A stretch of 26,166 nt of DNA, from positions 1 to 26,166 of IMG/VR virus record IMGVR_UViG_3300012936_000143. One strand, 5' to 3'. The position numbers and the translations under genes are program-made. Shown piece by piece: positions 3,638-26,159 of this stretch; within the stretch, counting starts at the first letter, position 1; every line of letters starts with the position of its first letter. This stretch comes from a virus. A model generated the notes under the pieces. It made no database searches and had not been told where the DNA came from. It saw nothing but the letters and a program-made list of their open reading frames with translations.

Positions 3638-4570
3638 CTATGCAGGGGTGCGGTTTCCAAAAAGTTCACCGCATTTATTGTAGAAATGAAAGAAACTCTC
3701 ATTCTGGTTATAATTTTCACTCTGATGTGCTGTGATTGTCGCTTGCTTGTATACTTGCGACATTTGCAAATCACACACTAACTGACCAGTACCATCAAAT
3801 ATGTTGTCTATTTGACTGAAGTGGTTAGCCATTCTTGAGTGTGTCCAGTACGAACTGTTAGTCCAATAACTTGCTGTGCAAACTAGCATCAAAGCCGTTG
3901 TCTTATTTGCAGGGAAAGTTACGTTTACATTATCACCTGTATACTGCCCACCACCTGATGAAGTATTCCAAGGCGTAGACCAACTATTATTCTGTCGAGT
4001 TACGCTCGTGTAATCTTGGTGGTTTGGCTTGTATACATGTAATGCTGCACCTTCGTATCCTTGATGCCAGTAATTAGTGTAGTGAAAGTTAACATTTTTG
4101 GCTATGCTATTATTAGTCGTATTACGAACGAACATAATATTACAAACTATAGGCATATAATTCTGCGTTGCTCGACCATGCAGTGTTTGCATGTGCTTTA
4201 AGCCAACAGAACGCTTATTCGCGTAATGCGTCCTTATCCCTTTAACATTATTACCAGTGTTATAAGAGTTACCACCGCCATACCTATAGAAGCCTACTCC
4301 GCGAGGTATTCTCCAACAAGCCTCTATTTTTCGCCAATCACTTGCTTCATAGACATAAAAAGTAGAACCATAGTAAGGGTGACCAGTATTCCAATCTCTA
4401 GACTGATGAAAATAACGCTCTTGAATACCACTAAAGGAAACAACCGTATGCGCTGCTTCTACTGTCGTAGTCGCTTCATTAGGATATATTCCTGGGGATG
4501 TTTCACCACTAGATGACGCACCTCCACCGCTTTTTAATTTTTGTATTTCATTAAGTAAATAGAGGTCCAT
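3638..4570 (-). CDS. Tail adhesin-like paralogue 3 (Trp/Tyr/Asn-rich)
   Basis: The third of three tandem paralogues (310 aa). It opens with MDLYLLNEIQKLKSGGG, the N-terminal peptide shared by all three, then a Gly/Ser linker. The body is very rich in Tyr, Trp, Asn, His and Ser. A conserved central block reads FVRNTTNNS (about 152-160) and later YEGAALHVYKPN, matching the equivalent blocks in the two genes upstream. No known enzyme motif is visible. The aromatic, polar composition fits a beta-rich sugar- or receptor-binding protein. The shared N-terminal peptide may dock all three onto one virion site. Its ATG overlaps the preceding stop (position 4570 is shared), with GGAG upstream. Receptor-binding role is inferred from context and composition. 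Confidence 0.7.
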   Translation of the reverse strand: MDLYLLNEIQKLKSGGGASSSGETSPGIYPNEATTTVEAAHTVVSFSGIQERYFHQSRDWNTGHPYYGSTFYVYEASDWRKIEACWRIPRGVGFYRYGGGNSYNTGNNVKGIRTHYANKRSVGLKHMQTLHGRATQNYMPIVCNIMFVRNTTNNSIAKNVNFHYTNYWHQGYEGAALHVYKPNHQDYTSVTRQNNSWSTPWNTSSGGGQYTGDNVNVTFPANKTTALMLVCTASYWTNSSYWTHSRMANHFSQIDNIFDGTGQLVCDLQMSQVYKQATITAHQSENYNQNESFFHFYNKCGELFGNRTPA

Positions 4571-5490
4571 TAGTTATCTCCGAATGTTTCGCCAAGCGAT
4601 TTCCAGAAGGTTACAAGGTCATTATCTTGGGCGTGATTTCCATTATAGTTAGCCACACGGTTACACAGATAATGTTGTGTCGCTTTGTTATCGATCACTA
4701 GCCCTGCATTGATAGGAACATGAGTGTTGTACCAGTTATTACCTTCGTAAACCCAATAACCGTTATCGGTGTTTGTGTAATACATGAACGAATTACAGAG
4801 AACATACGCCCTTGTCTGGTAAGGTCCGACTGTTATACTTGTACTTCCAGTTGTGTACCAAGTGTTATTGGTGTAAGTCCATTTGGTAGTTCTATTTACA
4901 GACGTTACTTGCGAGTATGCCGTATTGTTGGGGGTGTATTCTATTAAACACGCTCCATCATAACTATGAGAATAGCGACAACTAAACTGGTAGTATAAGT
5001 CACAACTAATTGAACTCCCTGTTGGGTTCCGCAAGAAGACTATGTTATTACCAAAAGATGCATAGTTATCGTGGTATCTAATAACGTGCGTTAATTGGTT
5101 TATGCCACAAGTCTTATATAGCGAATGGTAGAGCCTTTGTGAGGAATTGGTGGTTCCTCTGTTTTCCATTGTTGTATTATAATACCTGTTAGCGGAACTG
5201 TTATCATGCGATTCATTTGCTGAAAAGAAAATTGCCCTTTGATCTGATGCACCGAACTGCGCTGAAGTAGAGAAATTTGAGTAGTGGTTACTACTTGACC
5301 ATTCCCCGTTATCGTAAGCGTAGCGTCCGTTAGTTGAGTATACTGAATAAAAAGGTATACGATTAGTTGAGAAATTTGTTTTATTTGAATTGTGGGGGGC
5401 AATTAAGTAACCCCCTGCGGCTCCACCGCCACCTGTATTACCGTCTTTTAGTTGAGACAGTTTATTCAGTAAAAATAAGTCCATATCCAT
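4570..5490 (-). CDS. Tail adhesin-like paralogue 2 (Tyr/Asn-rich)
   Basis: Second of the three tandem paralogues (306 aa). The N-terminus is MDMDLFLLNKLSQLKDG; an internal Met at residue 3 gives a start matching the sister proteins exactly, and either could be used (AGGAG lies upstream). A Gly-rich linker (about 18-27) precedes a Tyr/Asn/Ser-rich body. The conserved central block is FLRNPTGSS, followed by YDGACLIEYTPN and SQVTSV, aligning with both neighbours, then the alternating hydrophobic RAYVLCNSFMYYTN. Overall divergence between paralogues is high outside these blocks. I infer a surface-exposed receptor or glycan contact role; the family itself is unknown to me. Confidence 0.7.
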   Translation of the reverse strand: MDMDLFLLNKLSQLKDGNTGGGGAAGGYLIAPHNSNKTNFSTNRIPFYSVYSTNGRYAYDNGEWSSSNHYSNFSTSAQFGASDQRAIFFSANESHDNSSANRYYNTTMENRGTTNSSQRLYHSLYKTCGINQLTHVIRYHDNYASFGNNIVFLRNPTGSSISCDLYYQFSCRYSHSYDGACLIEYTPNNTAYSQVTSVNRTTKWTYTNNTWYTTGSTSITVGPYQTRAYVLCNSFMYYTNTDNGYWVYEGNNWYNTHVPINAGLVIDNKATQHYLCNRVANYNGNHAQDNDLVTFWKSLGETFGDN

Positions 5491-5505
5491 TTTACTGTCT
5501 CCTTT

Positions 5506-6402
5506 TTATGGTGTTTCTGGGTAATTGTAGGCGCACATACGATACAAATTACGAACTCTATTGCTGTGGCTATAACTAAAATCCCCACTACTGGCATCCC
5601 AATTTGCATCACGGGCTAGTAAGGAAGTTTTGTACATATCATAATCAGGCCGCCACCCTGCGTTATAAAGGTCATGTATATTATAAAATGTAGACAAATC
5701 TTGCCACCCTGCAACATTACTACTGTCTTGGTAGTAATACAGTGAGTGCATCATCAAACAGACTACAGTTTTACCTGCTTCAATGCTGCCTCTACTGACA
5801 CTTCCACTCCAATCGGTGCTAGTACCAGTATAATTATTGTTACTCCAATCCAAATCGGTTACTTGCGATTTGTCTGCATAATTAGGCTCACCAATCGATA
5901 TGGATGCACCATCATGCCCTGACTGCCAGTTTGAACTCATTTTTCCATAAAGGTTCATAGTCAGATCGCCATTAGTAGTGTTTTTTAACCACATGATAGT
6001 CGTGCGGAAAGGGGGATAACTTTGACCATTCCAGCGTGTGTTATACATGCTAAATGGGCCACCATGTCTGCCCCCATTAATAAAGAGTAAATGAGGTGGA
6101 CCACCGTTATCGTAAGCCGATCTCTGGTTGGTTTCCGTATAGGGTTTACCTATCGCATTAAAAACACCATATTCATAATCGCTACGACCAGCACCGCCAT
6201 ATGTATAGAACGAGGTGTATGGGCTACTAGAACTCCAAGTCCAGTTATCCGTTTGCTGACGATCATTTACGCGAGTGATAATAGGCCAAACAGTCTCATT
6301 GCCACTAGCATCATTAGGGAGAAACATACTCCCTGCTTCAGAGGTTGACCCTGCGCCACCTGCCTCTAATTTGTTTAATTCGTTAAGGAGATATAAGTCC
6401 AT
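5506..6402 (-). CDS. Tail adhesin-like paralogue 1 (Trp/Tyr/Asn-rich)
   Basis: First of the three tandem paralogues to be translated (298 aa). It begins MDLYLLNELNKLEAGGAG, sharing the 12-residue N-terminal peptide, with AGGAG ahead of the start. The body has the same layout as its neighbours: an aromatic/Asn-rich region, a central block LKNTTNGDLTMNLYGK, then HDGASISIGEPN and SQVTDL, then the hydrophobic strand VVCLMMHSLYYY. It ends without the FG-containing tail the other two share. The gene is separated from paralogue 2 by 15 bases. Tandem divergence of an exposed protein is typical of host-range determinants, so a role in adsorption is likely but unproven. Confidence 0.7.
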   Translation of the reverse strand: MDLYLLNELNKLEAGGAGSTSEAGSMFLPNDASGNETVWPIITRVNDRQQTDNWTWSSSSPYTSFYTYGGAGRSDYEYGVFNAIGKPYTETNQRSAYDNGGPPHLLFINGGRHGGPFSMYNTRWNGQSYPPFRTTIMWLKNTTNGDLTMNLYGKMSSNWQSGHDGASISIGEPNYADKSQVTDLDWSNNNYTGTSTDWSGSVSRGSIEAGKTVVCLMMHSLYYYQDSSNVAGWQDLSTFYNIHDLYNAGWRPDYDMYKTSLLARDANWDASSGDFSYSHSNRVRNLYRMCAYNYPETP

Positions 6403-18226: not shown

Positions 18227-20092
18227 TTAGTATCCAAAAATATTGTCGCTAGGCTGGAAACCAGCATTAAAATCTGTACCCATTTCTTCGAAGATAGATT
18301 TTGACCTTGGGCGAGACATTACGGCATACCGTACAGAGTCATAAGCATGGTCATTTTTATATCTTGGGTCTATATCGTCACTCCCTTTCGGGTCTGAAGG
18401 AATGGTTGGTAAATCAGAAATTATTTGTCTGCAGGTATTAAAAAATTGAATTCCTGATAATCCTGTTTCTTGATCTACCTTCAATAATTCGTGCAGTCGG
18501 TTCTTACCTGCTATTCTTGAGCCAGCGCTTCTGTCGGAAGGTCTCCACCGACAACCCTGTGAAATCATTTCTTCTGCTATAGACGGTCCAATCTGGCCTC
18601 TTTGGTGCCAGCATGAGCTATCAAGCATTCCGTAGGAAATTCGTTCCCCGTATTCAGCATCTAGTACGGCTTTTGCAAGGTCCCTACCTGTGTGCTTACT
18701 TAGGTATAACTCCCTATAACATATCAAAGTCTCATACGCAGGGTCAATGGCGAACCAATGGACTGCACTAAAACTAGAGTACCCATAATCACAGCTTCTG
18801 AACCTTCTCCAATCGTGGGGGATATCGAAAGGCTCTACAACGTGATCTTTTTCCCTAAACTCTGAAAATGCTGCGCCATCAGCAACATTCCAATCTCCTT
18901 CAAGCAACTGTCTACGTTGCATTTCAGGTAGGGAAAGAAGGTTAGCCTCATATTGTCCATCTGCAGTAAGATAAGGATTATCTTTTAGTGATGCTGGTAT
19001 GAAGCGTCTATAAAAAAGAGGTTCCCCTGCTTTTGAATGACCTTCTGGGTAAACTAGTATGTCTCCTGTTTCTATATCAGTAGCTGCAAACTTCTGATTA
19101 GCTGGTGCAGGTTCAATAAATAACTTTCGAACCCATTGATGGCCTGGCCCCCCAGGATTAGTAGTAGCGCGGATAAAGATTGGTAACGAAGGATCAGTTG
19201 TTCTCAATCTTGAGCGCATATAATTGTACGCAAATGGAGTAGGATGCTGTGTTAATTCATCGAACCCCACATAACTAAAAGCCTGTCCCTGATATCGCAA
19301 AACATCTTGATCTCTTTCAAGATAAGTTAGCCATAATCTTGCACCAGAGGGGAATATCCATTGGCTTTTTCTTTCTTGCCATTTAGCCCCTTTAAATGCT
19401 TTGGGATATAGCTCTTGCGTCTTCCATACAATCTCTCTTAATTCATCAGTTGTTCTTCGAAGAATTAACCCGTTGAAGTTTGGGTTTGAGAAGTATCGCA
19501 TAGGGTCTGCGATTAGAGCTAGAGTCTTACCACCACCAGCCGCGCCCCCATATAGAACCTCTCGTTCACTTGCTGCTAAGAAATCTGTTTGGGGTCCTTG
19601 GTTAGGTCTGAATAAGACCTCTTCTTCTGTTTTAACAGGTGTAACAGAGAAGTCAAGCGTATCTGAAAAACTACTTTCTGTTTCTTCACTTTCCTGTTTT
19701 ATTTTCTTTTCGGCAATTGTTAAGCGTCTTCGCGCCTGTGCTAGGTTTTGCCGTAAAGCCTGTTCCTTTTTTGCCTCTTTGGTTTTAGGTTTTCGTTTTC
19801 GGTTCTGCTTATCTAATGTTTTAATTCTCTGCGTCTTTTCAGAACCCTGCCTATGTTCTTTCCAAATTTTAGATAGCCCTTGGTGGGAAATTTTTCTTCC
19901 CACTTCCCTCGTGAGCCACTCTGCCGTTTGACGTAACGAGTGACCTTCATCCAGATATTCAAATGATTGTTCAATATAAGGAGTTACACTATCATCTGGT
20001 ACGAGAACTAAAGGATCGTCCTCACTTGGCTTATAACCATACGCAACTCTAGCTGTAGCGTTGGGTCTAGCCTTATTCTTCCATTTCGTCAT
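18227..20092 (-). CDS. terL: Terminase large subunit with N-terminal recombinase-like extension
   Basis: A 621-aa packaging motor. The ATPase part has Walker A GAAGGGKT (183-190), Walker B SYVGFDEL with Asp278-Glu279, and the coupling motif TTNPGG (310-315). The nuclease domain has Asp435 (SCDYG), Asp491 (MLDSS) and Asp581/Asp585 (DHAYDS). It cuts concatemeric DNA and pumps it through the portal. Residues 17-81 (VAYGYKP..., LVLVPDDSV, FEYLDEGHSLRQTAEWL) resemble the Recombinase domain of large serine recombinases, a DNA-binding helical domain. A Lys/Arg-rich helical linker (88-135) follows. So the N-terminus may add DNA recognition, part of which TerS usually gives. The start overlaps TerS by 20 nt. 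Confidence 0.93.
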   Translation of the reverse strand: MTKWKNKARPNATARVAYGYKPSEDDPLVLVPDDSVTPYIEQSFEYLDEGHSLRQTAEWLTREVGRKISHQGLSKIWKEHRQGSEKTQRIKTLDKQNRKRKPKTKEAKKEQALRQNLAQARRRLTIAEKKIKQESEETESSFSDTLDFSVTPVKTEEEVLFRPNQGPQTDFLAASEREVLYGGAAGGGKTLALIADPMRYFSNPNFNGLILRRTTDELREIVWKTQELYPKAFKGAKWQERKSQWIFPSGARLWLTYLERDQDVLRYQGQAFSYVGFDELTQHPTPFAYNYMRSRLRTTDPSLPIFIRATTNPGGPGHQWVRKLFIEPAPANQKFAATDIETGDILVYPEGHSKAGEPLFYRRFIPASLKDNPYLTADGQYEANLLSLPEMQRRQLLEGDWNVADGAAFSEFREKDHVVEPFDIPHDWRRFRSCDYGYSSFSAVHWFAIDPAYETLICYRELYLSKHTGRDLAKAVLDAEYGERISYGMLDSSCWHQRGQIGPSIAEEMISQGCRWRPSDRSAGSRIAGKNRLHELLKVDQETGLSGIQFFNTCRQIISDLPTIPSDPKGSDDIDPRYKNDHAYDSVRYAVMSRPRSKSIFEEMGTDFNAGFQPSDNIFGY

Positions 20093-21467: not shown

Positions 21468-21758
21468 TTACCAATCCTTACACGCCCAATATTTGGCTTT
21501 CAGTTTGTTTTTAGCCGCCTCAGTATCGCAACCATGTCTCGCTCTAAAAGATTTACGAGCCGCTGCATTATTGGGACGGTTTCTCATTTCAGGGTCCCCA
21601 TACCGTACCAGAGCTATCTGGTCCCCCTGTTTCGCAAGAACAGCTTTAGCCTTTGGGCCATCAGGTGTCCTCTTAGGTTTATTAAACCCTGCGAATGTTT
21701 CTCCCCGATACTTAATACGTCCACTAGGTAGACGCTCTACATCTTTAGCTGTTGGCAT
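21468..21758 (-). CDS. Conserved phage protein with RARHxC...YWxCKxW end
   Basis: A 96-aa basic protein whose C-terminal third reads RKSFRARHGCDTE and then KAKYWACKDW. I recognise this ending from small conserved proteins of marine phages (possibly the family called DUF6321; not verified). His75, Cys77 and Cys93 could co-ordinate a metal, though a fourth ligand is unclear. The N-terminal part is rich in Lys and Arg, with motifs such as FAGFNKPKRTPDGPKAKAV. Nucleic-acid binding is a reasonable guess. Its ATG overlaps the end of the DUF1127 gene by 14 bases. Confidence 0.62.
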   Translation of the reverse strand: MPTAKDVERLPSGRIKYRGETFAGFNKPKRTPDGPKAKAVLAKQGDQIALVRYGDPEMRNRPNNAAARKSFRARHGCDTEAAKNKLKAKYWACKDW

Positions 21759-21918
21759 TATGTCTTTCTATCGCTTCTCTGATGGAGCCGCGACTTATGC
21801 CTAAATCTCTTAATTCTCTATCGGATAAAGAATGGAGAAGCATATAGTCTGCACGTTTCTGTTGGTATGCTGCAAATGACTTCATAATAGAAGTCGCATA
21901 TTCCATAATGTATTTCAT
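21745..21918 (-). CDS. DUF1127-family small protein
   Basis: A 57-aa protein, too short for usual ORF listings. It starts MKYIMEYATSIMKSFAAYQQ and ends with a textbook DUF1127 core: LHSLSDRELRDLGISRGSI, then REAIER. In bacteria, DUF1127 (YjiS-like) proteins are small regulators linked to phosphate, lipid or stress responses, acting with RNA or other proteins in the few cases studied. A perfect AGGAGG sits six bases before the ATG, but it lies inside a predicted stem-loop at 21927-21947. An extended -10 promoter (21952-21960) lies about 34 bases upstream. It probably heads the operon leading to TerS/TerL, which is unusual for a phage. Confidence 0.85.
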   Translation of the reverse strand: MKYIMEYATSIMKSFAAYQQKRADYMLLHSLSDRELRDLGISRGSIREAIERHNANS

Positions 21919-21926
21919 TATAACCT

Positions 21927-21947
21927 CCTGTAAGTGGTATGTACAGG
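21927..21947 (-). promoter_or_regulatory. Stem-loop sequestering the DUF1127 ribosome binding site
   Basis: Minus strand CCTGTA (21947-21942), a nine-base loop, TACAGG (21932-21927). The 3' arm runs into AGGAGG at 21929-21924, and two more G-C pairs can form past a mismatch with the flanking CCC. The transcript from the promoter above would start almost at this hairpin. It would hide the ribosome site unless something opens it. Confidence 0.55.
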
Positions 21948-21951
21948 GGGT

Positions 21952-21960
21952 ATTATAACA
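21952..21960 (-). promoter_or_regulatory. Extended -10 promoter of the DUF1127/packaging operon
   Basis: Minus strand TGTTATAAT (21960-21952), an extended -10 with perfect TATAAT, preceded by A/T-rich DNA and no clear -35. The sequence TAATACCCCCT beginning inside the -10 is repeated exactly inside the promoter upstream of 23350. Confidence 0.5.
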
Positions 21961-22001
21961 TACTGATAATTAAGACACTTGTAGGGTATTTTGCATACCC
22001 G

Positions 22002-22676
22002 TTAGTCTCTTGCGGTAAGCCTCGCTACAGTTCTATTTAAGAACCATACTACGAGTTTTGAATGCCAAGACTTCATCTTTCTCTCAACATCCAGAAATAA
22101 AATAATGCGCGGATAAAGGGTGTTATTCTGAACGTAGTGTTCGTAGGTATCATCGAATGCTAGTACCTGCCCATCATTCCAAAAATAACTCTGCCCATCG
22201 ACCATTAAGAAGCAGTCTTTTCTGTTGGGTGTTTTTAATCCTATATGGACTCTTACACTCCCTTTCCAAGGTCCTTCATGGGCCTCTATCCGCGCTTGCG
22301 GTTCCAAACACGAAACCATAGCTAATCTAATGTCTTTATGGCGTTTCAAGATTTTTAATGTCTTAGGACACTGAACACGGGCGTTTGGTGTTGGCCTTGA
22401 ATACCACTTTAAAATAAACTTATGCCACTTACCGTCATTGGTAACATCTTCGTCAAAAAACATATCACCCTGAATAGGGGTAGCATAATTTGCAGCCTGT
22501 AGAAGTTCTTGCTGCACTTCTTCAAAATTATCTAACAGGTCTTTTATTGACTTCCTTTCAGTCATTGCCTCTGTCAGATCAGCTTGCACAGGATCAAACG
22601 AATGACGGGCCACATAAGTATTAACCTTATCTAGCCACCTGTATAAAATCTCTGTGCTAAAAATTCTTGATAACAT
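22002..22676 (-). CDS. Aspartyl/asparaginyl beta-hydroxylase-like oxygenase
   Basis: A 224-aa protein. Its last 100 residues align by eye with AspH. CLEPQARIEAHEGP matches the PHTGP block (His133 as iron ligand) and VRVHIGLKTP the RMHLGL block (Arg142, His144). AFDDTYEHYVQN contains His180, the second ligand, and YPRIILFLDV has Arg190, which binds 2-oxoglutarate. The carboxylate ligand used by most 2OG enzymes is absent, as in AspH. The family hydroxylates Asp/Asn in EGF-like domains in eukaryotes and acts on lipids in some bacteria (LpxO type). The substrate here is unknown. It follows a small exported Cys-containing protein without a gap, so that protein is a candidate partner. Residues 1-70 are helical. 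Confidence 0.82.
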   Translation of the reverse strand: MLSRIFSTEILYRWLDKVNTYVARHSFDPVQADLTEAMTERKSIKDLLDNFEEVQQELLQAANYATPIQGDMFFDEDVTNDGKWHKFILKWYSRPTPNARVQCPKTLKILKRHKDIRLAMVSCLEPQARIEAHEGPWKGSVRVHIGLKTPNRKDCFLMVDGQSYFWNDGQVLAFDDTYEHYVQNNTLYPRIILFLDVERKMKSWHSKLVVWFLNRTVARLTARD

Positions 22677-22880
22677 CTATGTTTCGATGCCCCTAGAGAT
22701 AGGCAAACAATGATTAGTGATACTAATTGAAATGCCCTCGTACTGAGCTTCAAAGTTTCTCTTAGCTATTCGTGAAGCATCCTCACAGAATTGTCTGTCT
22801 GCAAAGAGGACGGGGGCTACTGAAAATGAACAGGTATCAATAGTGGTACTGAAGCACATCAGTATTACCGCTAAAAACAT
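22677..22880 (-). CDS. Small exported Cys-containing protein (unknown)
   Basis: A 67-aa protein with an N-terminal hydrophobic stretch typical of a signal peptide or membrane anchor (MFLAVILMCFSTTIDTCSFS) and Cys at 9, 17, 32 and 58. The part after residue 26 is polar (FADRQFCEDASRIAKRNFEA). It overlaps the upstream gene by a TGATG start/stop, and the next gene (the AspH-like oxygenase) begins on the base after its stop. That layout suggests the two are made together. No lipobox is evident. The family is unknown to me. Confidence 0.55.
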   Translation of the reverse strand: MFLAVILMCFSTTIDTCSFSVAPVLFADRQFCEDASRIAKRNFEAQYEGISISITNHCLPISRGIET

Positions 22881-23068
22881 CAGGAAGCTTTCTTAGCTTT
22901 CTTCCCCTTTTTAGCATACCCACCATATGCGTAGCCAGCTTTTGGCTGTTTCAAATTTGTAATATCTATGCCATTGCCTTGCACCGCCATGTAGCCACCA
23001 CCAGCGGCTTTTACGGAAGCTCCACAATTGGCAGGTTTGATTTTGGCAACTTTGTATCCCATGTTCAT
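22880..23068 (-). CDS. Small basic Gly/Ala/Lys-rich protein (unknown)
   Basis: A 62-aa protein with a Gly-rich middle (GASVKAAGGGYMAVQGNGID) and a Lys-rich end (KKGKKAKKAS). Only one Cys (15) is present. It starts MNMGYKV with AGG ten bases upstream; a start at the second Met is also possible. It ends in a TGATG overlap with the exported-protein gene. Resemblance to nucleic-acid or capsid-decorating basic peptides is compositional only. Confidence 0.55.
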   Translation of the reverse strand: MNMGYKVAKIKPANCGASVKAAGGGYMAVQGNGIDITNLKQPKAGYAYGGYAKKGKKAKKAS

Positions 23069-23071
23069 CTT

Positions 23072-23350
23072 CTACCTATTCTCAAAAAGTTTCTTTGCAA
23101 TTTCGGTAGCCTCTCTATCTTGTTTAGACGGTACGAAATTATGTTCAGTTTCGAAAAAATCTGCGTACCCACTAAAGGGCTGTGCATTTCTTCTAGCTTG
23201 TTCTGGGGTGATAAGGCCCTCTTCGACAAGATATTCTCTAGTTCTAACTAAGGACAGTCTTACACCTGTGTTTGCTTCTATAGCTGCCCTTATATAATGG
23301 AGATTTATGGTATACTTATCGGTGCCTGTATTGGATGGTCTGTTTTTCAT
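23072..23350 (-). CDS. Small protein, possible DNA-binding (unknown)
   Basis: A 92-aa protein with a helical N-terminal half (HYIRAAIEANTGVRLSLVRT, then REYLVEEGLITPEQARR) that could form a winged-helix or helix-turn-helix. A C-terminal part follows with SGYADFFETEHNFVP and ends in an acidic/basic helix. I do not recognise the family. It is first in its operon, behind a good promoter (23370-23399) whose spacer carries the recurrent G-rich motif. A regulator that acts on such sites is a possibility, not shown. Confidence 0.55.
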   Translation of the reverse strand: MKNRPSNTGTDKYTINLHYIRAAIEANTGVRLSLVRTREYLVEEGLITPEQARRNAQPFSGYADFFETEHNFVPSKQDREATEIAKKLFENR

Positions 23351-23369
23351 TCTAATCCATCTAGTAATC

Positions 23370-23399
23370 TTTATAACATAGGGGGTATTAGCTAGTCAA
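23370..23399 (-). promoter_or_regulatory. Sigma70-type promoter for the 23350-22002 operon
   Basis: Minus strand -35 TTGACT (23399-23394), 18-bp spacer, extended -10 TGTTATAAA (TATAAA 23375-23370). The spacer contains TAATACCCCCT, an exact copy of the sequence at the DUF1127 promoter. The start would be near 23363, only about 13 bases before the ATG. Confidence 0.6.
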
Positions 23400-23405
23400 C
23401 TGAAA

Positions 23406-23415
23406 TAACCCCTTG
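23406..23415. repeat. 10-bp copy of the TAACCCCTTG motif
   Basis: TAACCCCTTG on the plus strand, the first 10 bases of the 13-mer found at 3137 and 26081. It sits just upstream of the -35 of the promoter at 23370-23399, a position that fits an operator or activator site. Confidence 0.45.
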
Positions 23416-23434
23416 CCAAGACCCCTAATCCATG

Positions 23435-23456
23435 ATAAAATTCAGATGTCCTCTGA
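23435..23456 (-). terminator. Weak intrinsic terminator after the HNH-like gene
   Basis: Minus strand TCAGA (23456-23452), loop GGACA, wait-free closing arm TCTGA (23446-23442), then ATTTTAT. The stem is short and the T-run imperfect, so termination is likely partial. It lies between the HNH-like gene and the next promoter. Confidence 0.4.
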
Positions 23457-23463
23457 GGGGGTC

Positions 23464-23871
23464 CTATATATACAATGCTAGGTTAGCTTTTAGTACGCTG
23501 TACGGAATATCTAGCTGATAGGCCAACACTCTAATCGTTTCCTCTTTGCAAGAGTCTTGTTTCAAACGATTAGCTTTCTGGGACACCACCCTTACATTTC
23601 CACGAATATACCCTTTAGATGGGTCTATCCTGTCTATTGACGGGCTACTATTGGCTGGGCCTTTCTTTTTCTTAAAATAATCTATTGGTATGCCCAGAAC
23701 AGGGCAGCGTAAGGGAAAAGGGGAGAGATCGTCTAATGAGATATCAAACTCAATATCATCTTTCCTACATCTTGAAGAGATATTATTGAGTGTTGTAAGA
23801 AACTTTAAGCGACAATACGCTTCAAATACCTCTTCGATATTAAGATGCTGCAACTCTCTTGGGTCATACAT
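23464..23871 (-). CDS. HNH-like nuclease family protein
   Basis: A 135-aa protein. The core reads RCPVLGIPIDYF (Cys56), then SPSIDRIDPSKGYIRGNVRV (about 76-95) and VSQKANRLKQD. I know this pattern from phage HNH-type endonucleases and their relatives. The first His of HNH is replaced by Asp here (SIDRID), and only one Cys remains of a usual CxxC pair, so activity is uncertain. Residues 1-45 are helical. The start overlaps the preceding gene by 8 bases. It may be a free-standing homing-type nuclease, a packaging-linked nuclease or a degenerate copy. Confidence 0.62.
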   Translation of the reverse strand: MYDPRELQHLNIEEVFEAYCRLKFLTTLNNISSRCRKDDIEFDISLDDLSPFPLRCPVLGIPIDYFKKKKGPANSSPSIDRIDPSKGYIRGNVRVVSQKANRLKQDSCKEETIRVLAYQLDIPYSVLKANLALYI

Positions 23872-24211
23872 CGTCCTCTGCCCCTTCGAATAGGGGGATT
23901 TGGCCTTGTCCAGTTACATAGTTTTCTTGCTGTTCTGCAGCTTTAAGAAACTCTTCAGAAGCTTCTCTTAAGGCATGCCCCATCTTGTACATATCCCCAA
24001 ATCCATCTGCAGACAGGTCTTCACGGGAATATTCAATAGCGTTTTCAACTAAGGTTCTAAAAGGGACCACGACAACCTTTGCATCATCGTCATCATCTTC
24101 AGGAGTGTACGCAAAGCAAGAGACTGTTAGTATACCATCTTGATCTACTTCAAGTTCATGCTCCACATCTAATTCAAATTCGAATTTAATAGTTTCTGTG
24201 GTAGTTGTCAT
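23864..24211 (-). CDS. Acidic protein (unknown)
   Basis: A 115-aa acidic protein from ATG 24211 (MTTTTETIKFEFELDVEHEL). A frame open further upstream to 24298 starts with GTG inside the promoter, so the shorter start is preferred. The first 55 residues look like beta strands with a DDDDDD-like run (PEDDDDDAK), the rest helical (YSREDLSADGFGDMYKMGHA, then LREASEEFLKAAEQQ). Such acidic proteins often mimic DNA or bind host factors; that is a guess. Its stop overlaps the HNH-like start by 8 bases. Confidence 0.6.
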   Translation of the reverse strand: MTTTTETIKFEFELDVEHELEVDQDGILTVSCFAYTPEDDDDDAKVVVVPFRTLVENAIEYSREDLSADGFGDMYKMGHALREASEEFLKAAEQQENYVTGQGQIPLFEGAEDDV

Positions 24212-24266
24212 TTTCTGTACTGCTCTATCAGGGACCACACCCGTAGATTTATTTATTATATTGGAT

Positions 24267-24295
24267 GGTATACACCATATATTGTGGTAGGTCAA
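24267..24295 (-). promoter_or_regulatory. Sigma70-type promoter upstream of 24211
   Basis: Minus strand -35 TTGACC (24295-24290), a 17-bp spacer and -10 TATACC (24272-24267). An inverted repeat ATGGT-GTAT-ACCAT overlaps the -10, and a copy of the GGGGTTA motif (24301-24308) with a near-complementary partner (TAACCCT, 24314-24320) lies just upstream. Both could be regulator sites. Expected start near 24260. Confidence 0.55.
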
Positions 24296-24400
24296 CACTT
24301 AGGGGTTACTTTATAACCCTTACTTAATGGATTACGCGGATGGACCTAGTTTACAATAGCCCCGAAGGTGTATTTTAAAGTTATCTACGAAGTTTACATT

Positions 24401-24550
24401 TTAAATCAACGCGGATCGATTATTCTCCATAGTGCAACCTAATGGTTTACAGCCCATTTTTCCTAATTTTGTGCAGAGCTTGTATACGATACCGCCACCC
24501 ACCCCCCATGGCGCTTGGCCCCCCTCGCATTTTTTAAGATAGCAAGTAAG
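24401..24550 (-). pseudogene. Open frame of 49 codons without an ATG (possible remnant)
   Basis: A minus-strand frame runs from just after a stop (TAG at 24553-24551) to TAA at 24403-24401. It encodes a Cys/Gly-rich sequence that includes KKCEGGQAPWGVGGGIVYK and GKMGCKPLGCTMENNR. It has five Cys and reads like protein, but lacks an upstream ATG. Internal ATGs exist at 24457 and 24430, and a GTG at 24502. No ribosome site is clear. It may be the end of a broken gene or a chance frame in G-rich DNA. Confidence 0.2.
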
Positions 24551-24792
24551 CTATTGTTTTTTAACGCTTTTCTTCTGTAAACTTATAATATAATAAGAAA
24601 AGAAAGAGCTAAAATAAAACCAAAGAGAAATTAAGAAAAGAAATTGTAATAATATCAAGAATTTATAGCTTTGGGGCTTATACTTTTTTGTTATCAGGCT
24701 AGGAAAATTGCTCCAGATTTTTAACTTGACGAAAATTAATTGGCTGGTGGTGCCTCTTTCGCGTGTACGTTTTAAGCCTCTTATAATCTAGT

Positions 24793-24889
24793 AATAGCTG
24801 CAGGGGCTATTCTAAAGCCCGTACAAGGGGGTTATTACTCTTTAGCAAGTTACCCTAGCTTAACCCCGTAAAGCTTCCCTACGGGCTTT
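24793..24889. ncRNA. Nested-stem element, possible structured RNA or cis-site
   Basis: Perfect outer stem AAAGCCCGTA (24814-24823) with TACGGGCTTT (24880-24889); inner stem GGGGTTA (24828-24834) with TAACCCC (24861-24867); a flanking hairpin AATAGC/GCTATT (24793-24798 with 24806-24811). Alternative pairings exist: GGGCT/AGCCC (24804-24808 with 24816-24820) and CCCGTA/TACGGG (24865-24870 with 24880-24885), the last followed on the plus strand by CTTTTAATTA, like a weak terminator. A plus-strand TATAAT sits at 24782-24787. It may be a small RNA, an attenuator-like switch or a DNA site. Confidence 0.35.
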
Positions 24890-24935
24890 TAATTAGCTTT
24901 TGGCGCTCCAAGACTCTTGCAATGTTTCAGGGCAA

Positions 24936-24960
24936 TAAAAAAGCCCCCAAAAAGGGGGCT
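24936..24960 (-). terminator. Intrinsic terminator of the three-gene cassette
   Basis: Minus strand AGCCCCC, loop TTTTT, GGGGGCT, then a T6 run and ATTGCCCTG. Strong stem and T-run make this a confident terminator after the gene ending at 24997. Stem, T-run and downstream ATTGCCCTG are nearly identical to the terminator at 26134-26159. Confidence 0.85.
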
Positions 24961-24996
24961 AATCATTATCATATTATAAGCTGGTTATTAGTCTAA

Positions 24997-25275
24997 CTAA
25001 AACCCCTGCATTTTATGCACAAGGTCATTAAGCTGGCTATGTACATCATAATATTTTTTAAGAGCTTTCTTACTGTTTTCCAATTGGCGCTCTAACCTAG
25101 CGACTTTGCTTAGTAGCTCCAAATTGCGCTCTTGCTTAGTACGGGCAATGTTAACCAGTTTCTGCAAGTCTTTAGCCGTTTCAAAGCGCTGCGCCTCTTT
25201 AGTATCTGGAATAAGAGTTTCCTCAATAAAAGCTAAAAAATTTCTAAGCCCGTTACTTCCGTTAAATTCAGTCAT
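24997..25275 (-). CDS. Coiled-coil protein of the three-gene cassette (unknown)
   Basis: A 92-aa protein. Residues 30-90 are a strong coiled coil (AKDLQKLVNIARTKQERNLE, then LLSKVARLERQLENSKKALK). The N-terminus is short and polar (MTEFNGSNGLRNFLAFIEET). There is no Cys, signal or membrane segment. It is the last of three genes linked by ATGA overlaps, followed by a strong terminator. I do not recognise the family. Confidence 0.65.
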   Translation of the reverse strand: MTEFNGSNGLRNFLAFIEETLIPDTKEAQRFETAKDLQKLVNIARTKQERNLELLSKVARLERQLENSKKALKKYYDVHSQLNDLVHKMQGF

Positions 25276-26133: not shown

Positions 26134-26159
26134 TAAAAAAAGCCCCCATTTAGGGGGCT
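26134..26159 (-). terminator. Intrinsic terminator of a gene beyond the window
   Basis: Minus strand AGCCCCC (26159-26153), loop TAAAT, GGGGGCT (26147-26141), then T7 and ATGCCCTG. It ends transcription coming from higher coordinates outside the window. It is a near copy of the terminator at 24936-24960. Confidence 0.82.

Follow-up and report, generated by a model that had tools for sequence, protein, structure and literature searches.

Here we describe the leader of a small regulator gene in a phage genome fragment of 26,166 nt (IMG/VR record IMGVR_UViG_3300012936_000143, positions 1 to 26,166; the whole stretch is called the window below), together with its counterparts in other phages. The window phage is a relative of the HMO-2011-type roseophages, with a portal protein 61–67% identical to those of CRP-212, CRP-3, CRP-235 and CRP-738 (67% for CRP-212); its membership in the group rests on homologous portal and terminase proteins and on a gene order as in CRP-212. 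A DNA polymerase A whose central part is DnaJ-like is a trait of HMO-2011-type phages; the 26-kb record covers the structural arm.

A DUF1127 gene heads the packaging module; behind it come the genes for terminase and portal as well as four small ORFs (Table 1). Both the DUF1127 identity of the 57-aa protein and its place at the head of the packaging operon had been proposed from the sequence in a preliminary description, and both are confirmed: the match to PF06568 (32.8 bits, cut-off 23.3; residues 12–46 on positions 2–36 of the 37 in the profile) exceeds the gathering score, and a DUF1127 ORF occupies the same place in CRP-212, CRP-3, CRP-13, CRP-207, CRP-603 and CRP-345, among which only that of CRP-603 (gp69) is labelled as such. 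A search of solved structures gave no convincing relative, and host relatives were found at 3 loci out of 249 pattern matches. RNA binding has been reported for the DUF1127 protein CcaF1 of Rhodobacter sphaeroides (PMC10253847), and binding to the sensor kinase PhoR for small DUF1127 proteins of Agrobacterium (PMC12501420). The phage protein shares PF06568 with these proteins, which are host proteins, unlike itself; it may be an RNA- or PhoR-directed host regulator. An effect on host phosphate or stress physiology, suggested in the preliminary description, is hypothetical. Transcripts of the hydroxylase gene upstream are expected to read through into the DUF1127 leader. An ORF that resembles this hydroxylase by eye also lies upstream of DUF1127 in another of the collected sequences (L002).

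Table 1. Features of the DUF1127 locus in the window
Feature	Position	Strand	Basis or remark
Terminase large subunit gene	18227..20092	-	PHROG 979, E 1.4e-61; in the module downstream of DUF1127
DUF1127 gene, ATG start, 57 aa	21745..21918	-	ORF; PF06568, E 5.8e-8; PHROG 26566, E 3.8e-5
Shine-Dalgarno (SD) sequence AGGAGG	21924..21929	-	sequence; 5 nt before ATG
3' arm of the predicted lock, TACAGGAGG, includes SD	21924..21932	-	sequence, fold
9-nt loop, CATACCACT	21933..21941	-	fold
5' arm of the predicted lock, CCCCCTGTA	21942..21950	-	fold, arm search; pairs with the 3' arm at 8 positions, one C/A mismatch
Predicted transcription start	21944..21945	-	inference; offset 7-8 after -10, G at offset 8
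Extended -10 element, TGT-TATAAT	21952..21960	-	sequence; perfect TATAAT, TG one base ahead
Promoter box, CGGGTATGC	21993..22001	-	only exact match in window; directly past the stop codon of the upstream gene
Aspartyl/asparaginyl beta-hydroxylase gene, upstream of DUF1127	22002..22676	-	PF05118, E 1.4e-40; stop codon abuts promoter box

Several other features of the window were recorded. An endonuclease VII/HNH-like protein is encoded at 23464–23871 (minus strand; PHROG 3322, E 1.3e-25). Two near-identical terminators (AGCCCCC..GGGGGCT followed by a T-run) lie 1.2 kb apart at 24942–24960 and 26141–26159 (minus strand), and behind the first, a strong one, is a non-coding gap of about 640 nt (24299–24941, minus strand), which may be regulatory or encode an RNA; CRP-212, CRP-3, CRP-235 and CRP-738 have similarly sized gaps at the matching place, and short similar blocks recur among these. 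Three tandem ORFs at 3638–6402 (minus strand) with similar N-termini (MDLYLLNEI/L..) are probably duplicated tail or fibre genes. Rfam gave zero families at gathering score on the window and weak matches only, at 21700–25100.

Leader and hairpin in the window

The stem of the window leader is formed by CCTGTA (21942–21947) and TACAGG (21927–21932) and continues past the C/A mismatch with pairing of 21949–21950 to 21924–21925. The proposal that the SD is buried in a hairpin is thus borne out as far as the pairing itself is concerned, and the comparison described below supports it for the family; within the window alone the hairpin is not above chance (p 0.10–0.22), as judged from the uninterrupted stem (p 0.22, 200 shuffles) and the energy needed to open the SD (p 0.13 and 0.10), and the whole-leader fold has a z of −0.87. 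A plain sigma-70 consensus scan of the window returned 16 sites versus 13.5 expected, and the DUF1127 promoter, which has no −35 element, was not among them.

The preliminary description had the stem starting almost at the transcript start, which does not agree with the placement of its arms. Counted from the −10 element, the 5' arm comprises offsets 2–10 and the SD partners offsets 2–7, with the canonical start at offset 7–8, so that most of the 5' arm should be missing from the local transcript. The computed SD opening energy is about 8–11 kcal/mol on longer RNA; with starts progressively closer to the gene it is 7.3 at offset 5, 6.2 at offset 6 and 3.8 at offset 7, in a region where a C-run is followed by T and G. 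The local transcript keeps a structure of 3.8 kcal/mol at the SD, some of it due to a second hairpin in which the AUG can take part. No upstream ORF was seen in the leader from the predicted start onward.

A common promoter and two classes of leader

Leaders were collected with the DUF1127 protein, a DUF1127 alignment, two terminase proteins and named phages, which yielded 163 distinct DUF1127 leaders in 69 clusters, or 70 after addition of CRP-1; anchoring on the next downstream gene returned unrelated phages and was dropped. Sixty-six of the 70 clusters, those in which a box (CGGGTATK or CGGGGTTG) is followed by a −10 hexamer (scan range 40–47), were kept, and four without a box promoter (L188, L032, L031 and L034) were left out. 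The −10 hexamer lies 41–45 bp after the start of the box in all 66 clusters (42–44 bp in 64 of them) and is TATAAC, TATAAT or TAAAAC, with one case each of TACAAC and TATAAA, behind a CGGGKWTKC box.

The DUF1127 ORF stands behind this common promoter in all 11 CRP isolates that group with the window by portal similarity (CRP-1, CRP-2, CRP-3, CRP-9, CRP-13, CRP-207, CRP-212, CRP-235, CRP-345, CRP-603 and CRP-738). In these 11 and in the window, the strict box with its −10 occurs exactly once per genome and always before DUF1127, versus about 0.2 occurrences expected per genome; the scan took in about 8 kb apiece for CRP-345 and CRP-603 and, for each of the other nine CRP genomes, its final 50 kb. 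In the 50 kb of HMO-2011 searched there was neither this promoter nor a DUF1127 match. Of six other phages considered for DUF1127, two had no scorable SD and four were scored for the lock: it was not found in CRP-5, CRP-6 and DSS3_MAL1, and the phiM12 leader gave p 0.03 with an only loose box match. The DUF1127-like ORF of P12053L, CRP-5 and CRP-6 (L375, L376 and L380) lies between a MazG gene and the ribonucleotide reductase region, and the strict type of box promoter is absent there.

A second set was obtained by scanning viral contigs for the box alone and then with the DUF1127 profile, with no hairpin criterion. GCATAACGGGGTTGCA was found in at least 103 distinct contexts; among the matches listed, 102 had a −10 at 40–47, 99 a DUF1127 ORF called next, and 98 both. 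GCATARCGGGTATGC was found in 67 contexts, 31 of them with a −10, and DUF1127 came next in 31 of these 31.

Two classes of leader were distinguished among 107 clusters. The consensus of the box is GCATARCGGGKWTKC. In class A, to which 51 clusters and among them the window belong, there is a single −10 and the box forms a 15-bp partial dyad; in class B (56 clusters) the box is fused to a −35-like TTGCA. An additional promoter with a consensus −10 (TATAAC) located 14–15 bp upstream, here termed P1, is present in 43 of the 56 class-B clusters versus 1 of the 51 in class A, and the downstream promoter is present in all 107. An upstream ORF of at least 60 codons ends at −60 to +42 of the box in 101 of the 107 clusters, and a T5 run occurs in only two of them, so that a U-run terminator is missing before the promoter in 105; given these two observations, read-through from upstream is the expected default.

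Opening energies and pairing across the leader family

For each of the 66 clusters, leaders were folded at 22 °C, and the energy required to free the SD was computed once for read-through RNA and once with the 5' end set 7 nt past the −10. The medians were 8.6 kcal/mol for read-through RNA and 1.8 kcal/mol for the local start. With the upstream part dinucleotide-shuffled, the median was 3.1 kcal/mol, and with the upstream part swapped between phages it was 4.2 kcal/mol (Wilcoxon p 2.6e-11). Individually, 52 of the 66 clusters reached p ≤ 0.05 against shuffles, and six (L220, L151, L224, L315, L281 and L342) had no clear lock (p > 0.2). The 42 new clusters of the second set gave medians of 8.2 kcal/mol for read-through and 0.9 kcal/mol for local RNA, with p ≤ 0.05 in 33 of them and no clear lock in L527.

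Control genes were other genes from nine genome records. A total of 169 were found, and 34 of these, including four DUF1127 genes, were set aside on a loose box scan match. Among the remaining 135, seven were at p ≤ 0.05 (median 2.1 kcal/mol); the corresponding numbers were 3 of 30 for the set-aside controls other than DUF1127 and 10 of 165 for all controls pooled. The coat protein gene accounts for three of these seven controls with an unusually buried SD, each time in another phage (window 12585, L365:33106 and L368:35304, all on the minus strand; p 0.02, 0.02 and 0.05), and its leader may also be structured.

The median opening energy of the 66 clusters depends on where the RNA starts: RNA that begins upstream of the −10 needs about 9 kcal/mol, and the value drops to 5.9 for a start at offset 0, 2.9 at 3 and 1.8 at 7; it is nearly flat from offset 5 to offset 9 (1.9 to 2.0). 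In the best stem, no SD partner lies downstream of offset 8 in 65 of the 66 clusters, versus 80% in shuffles; the base at offset 8 is most often G (39 of 66). The pairing stretch matches the interval from the −10 to +1. The stem of CRP-235 has 14 bp, and its whole 5' arm precedes the −10 hexamer; CRP-738 and L275 show this arrangement too. The sequences of arms and loops differ widely among clusters, and the spacing between arms ranges from a few nt to more than 30 nt; the constant feature is that the 5' arm is encoded before the start site. The preliminary description held that a transcript start far upstream, with an alternative fold freeing AGGAGG, would speak against its proposal. The prediction is the reverse, with upstream starts locking the SD and the local start freeing it.

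Covariation was tested by swaps because the MAFFT alignment of the leaders was out of structural register. When only the segment around the −10 was replaced by that of other phages, the median fell from 8.6 to 4.2 kcal/mol (p 6e-11); since such swaps lower the opening energy, each arm fits the SD region of its own phage. In 54 leaders, G-U combinations in the arms number 40 and A-C combinations 11 (p 5.7e-5), although both were scored alike in the search, which points to pairing that acts as RNA, because this asymmetry is not expected of a DNA dyad. As opening energies, G-U excess, partner placement and the second set agree, the sequestering helix is, judged from the sequences, real for the DUF1127 leader family. 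The suggestion that the phage DUF1127 gene is under translational control is strongly supported by the 66 and 42 leader clusters, with the geometry of the hairpin reversed from that first proposed.

Interpretation and relation to known systems

The DUF1127 leader is probably a translational lock that is bypassed by the gene's own promoter. Read-through RNA from the upstream genes would carry the stretch between the −10 and the start, which would pair with the SD and block ribosomes, so that DUF1127 would not be made from this RNA. RNA polymerase starting at the adjacent promoter (box and TATAAY) would produce a transcript that begins near the end of the pairing stretch; with the SD partner missing, the SD would be open and DUF1127 translated as the first product of the packaging and structural transcript. 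The protein would thus be made only once its own promoter fires. We infer late timing of that promoter, repression on read-through RNA and some reason for keeping DUF1127 off early, just as the start sites and the read-through itself are predictions.

The main complication for this simple model is P1 of class B, since RNA made locally may in some cases not be open: the median opening energy in class B is 9.2 kcal/mol for P1 RNA versus 1.2 kcal/mol, and P1 RNA is predicted to be locked. One tentative suggestion, which we think could be correct but would not expect to be, is that the box is the site of a dedicated activator of a single master late promoter, and that the choice between the two class-B promoters sets whether DUF1127 accompanies the packaging genes. 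If true, two promoters 14–15 bp apart would transcribe one operon, one giving RNA that carries the SD lock and the other RNA that lacks it.

The predicted locking of RNA from P1, a promoter of 43 of the 56 class-B clusters, would also fit an autoregulated or sensor leader of the kind first proposed for the window, in which the hairpin forms on the local transcript and is opened by a factor such as the DUF1127 protein, a host factor or temperature; the RNA binding reported for CcaF1 (PMC10253847) is consistent with this as well. We consider such a leader unlikely: the downstream promoter is found in every cluster and P1 in only one of class A, to which the window belongs, the SD partner is at or upstream of the predicted start in all but one of 66 clusters and sometimes wholly upstream of the −10, and the arms and loops vary widely, unlike a specific protein site. 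The reading that the local mRNA begins with the hairpin was rejected as the main one, the SD partner being at or upstream of the predicted start. In most clusters the inverted repeat shares bases with the −10 and the start site, which would agree with a DNA operator bound by a repressor, yet arm sequences that differ by lineage and still always pair with the SD, together with the variable spacing between arms, argue against it; it is disfavoured by the G-U/A-C asymmetry and seems very improbable.

In switching of the pyrC type, nucleotide pools set small shifts of the start site, which make or break an SD hairpin by adding or removing its 5' arm. The window, with its steep change in opening energy between offsets 5 and 7 and its C-run followed by T and G, would allow such a switch, but small shifts would not switch most members of the family, because the median barely moves over offsets 5 to 9, and we give this explanation little credence. 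It is also hardly credible that the complementarity is a mere by-product of a pyrimidine-rich discriminator with no regulatory role. Offsets 3–7 are indeed pyrimidine-rich in many clusters, and the window alone is not above chance, but swapping the 5' segment lowers the median as described above, and in CRP-235, CRP-738 and others the arm lies outside the discriminator. The lock bypassed by the gene's own promoter remains the preferred interpretation.

To our knowledge, an SD lock released by a promoter is known only from T4-like phages, where the T4 late genes soc and 49 have their SD hidden on long early or middle RNA. For T4 gene e and I-TevI, the SD is reported to be hidden on long early RNA, and the RNA from the late promoter to lack the 5' strand (PMC3014915; PMC2988022). 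The DUF1127 leaders resemble these two genes in that the SD is paired on read-through RNA and the promoter lies in or beside the 5' strand, here by computation and with a predicted start. They differ from them in belonging to unrelated roseobacter phages and in their promoter of box and TATAAY: the T4 late promoter TATAAATA was not found at DUF1127 leaders, which have their hexamers behind the CGGGKWTKC box instead. Further differences from T4 are that the locked gene is a DUF1127 regulator heading the packaging module, and that the lock is kept over about 100 diverged leader clusters, many with a second promoter 14–15 bp upstream giving RNA predicted to be locked. Leader-based post-transcriptional control by uORF attenuation is reported for a DUF1127 gene of Sinorhizobium meliloti (PMC12218461); that leader attenuates transcription via translation of the uORF, whereas the phage leader has a predicted block at the SD and no uORF was seen. 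A term search for DUF1127 and promoter found neither in the main text of a paper on the HMO-2011-type group (PMC9038755), and a search of the open-access literature returned no paper on this promoter or leader and, among the matches listed, none joining DUF1127 and HMO-2011.

With the proposed lock, a T4-type mechanism would also hold for unrelated phages of alphaproteobacteria, in which about 100 natural variants exist, and the analysis provides a one-per-genome promoter signature for the packaging module. For a widespread DUF1127 regulator of a dominant marine phage group, sequence alone would then predict when, and from which RNA, the protein is made. The model also makes it a concrete question why the phage would need to be free of DUF1127 until the promoter fires.
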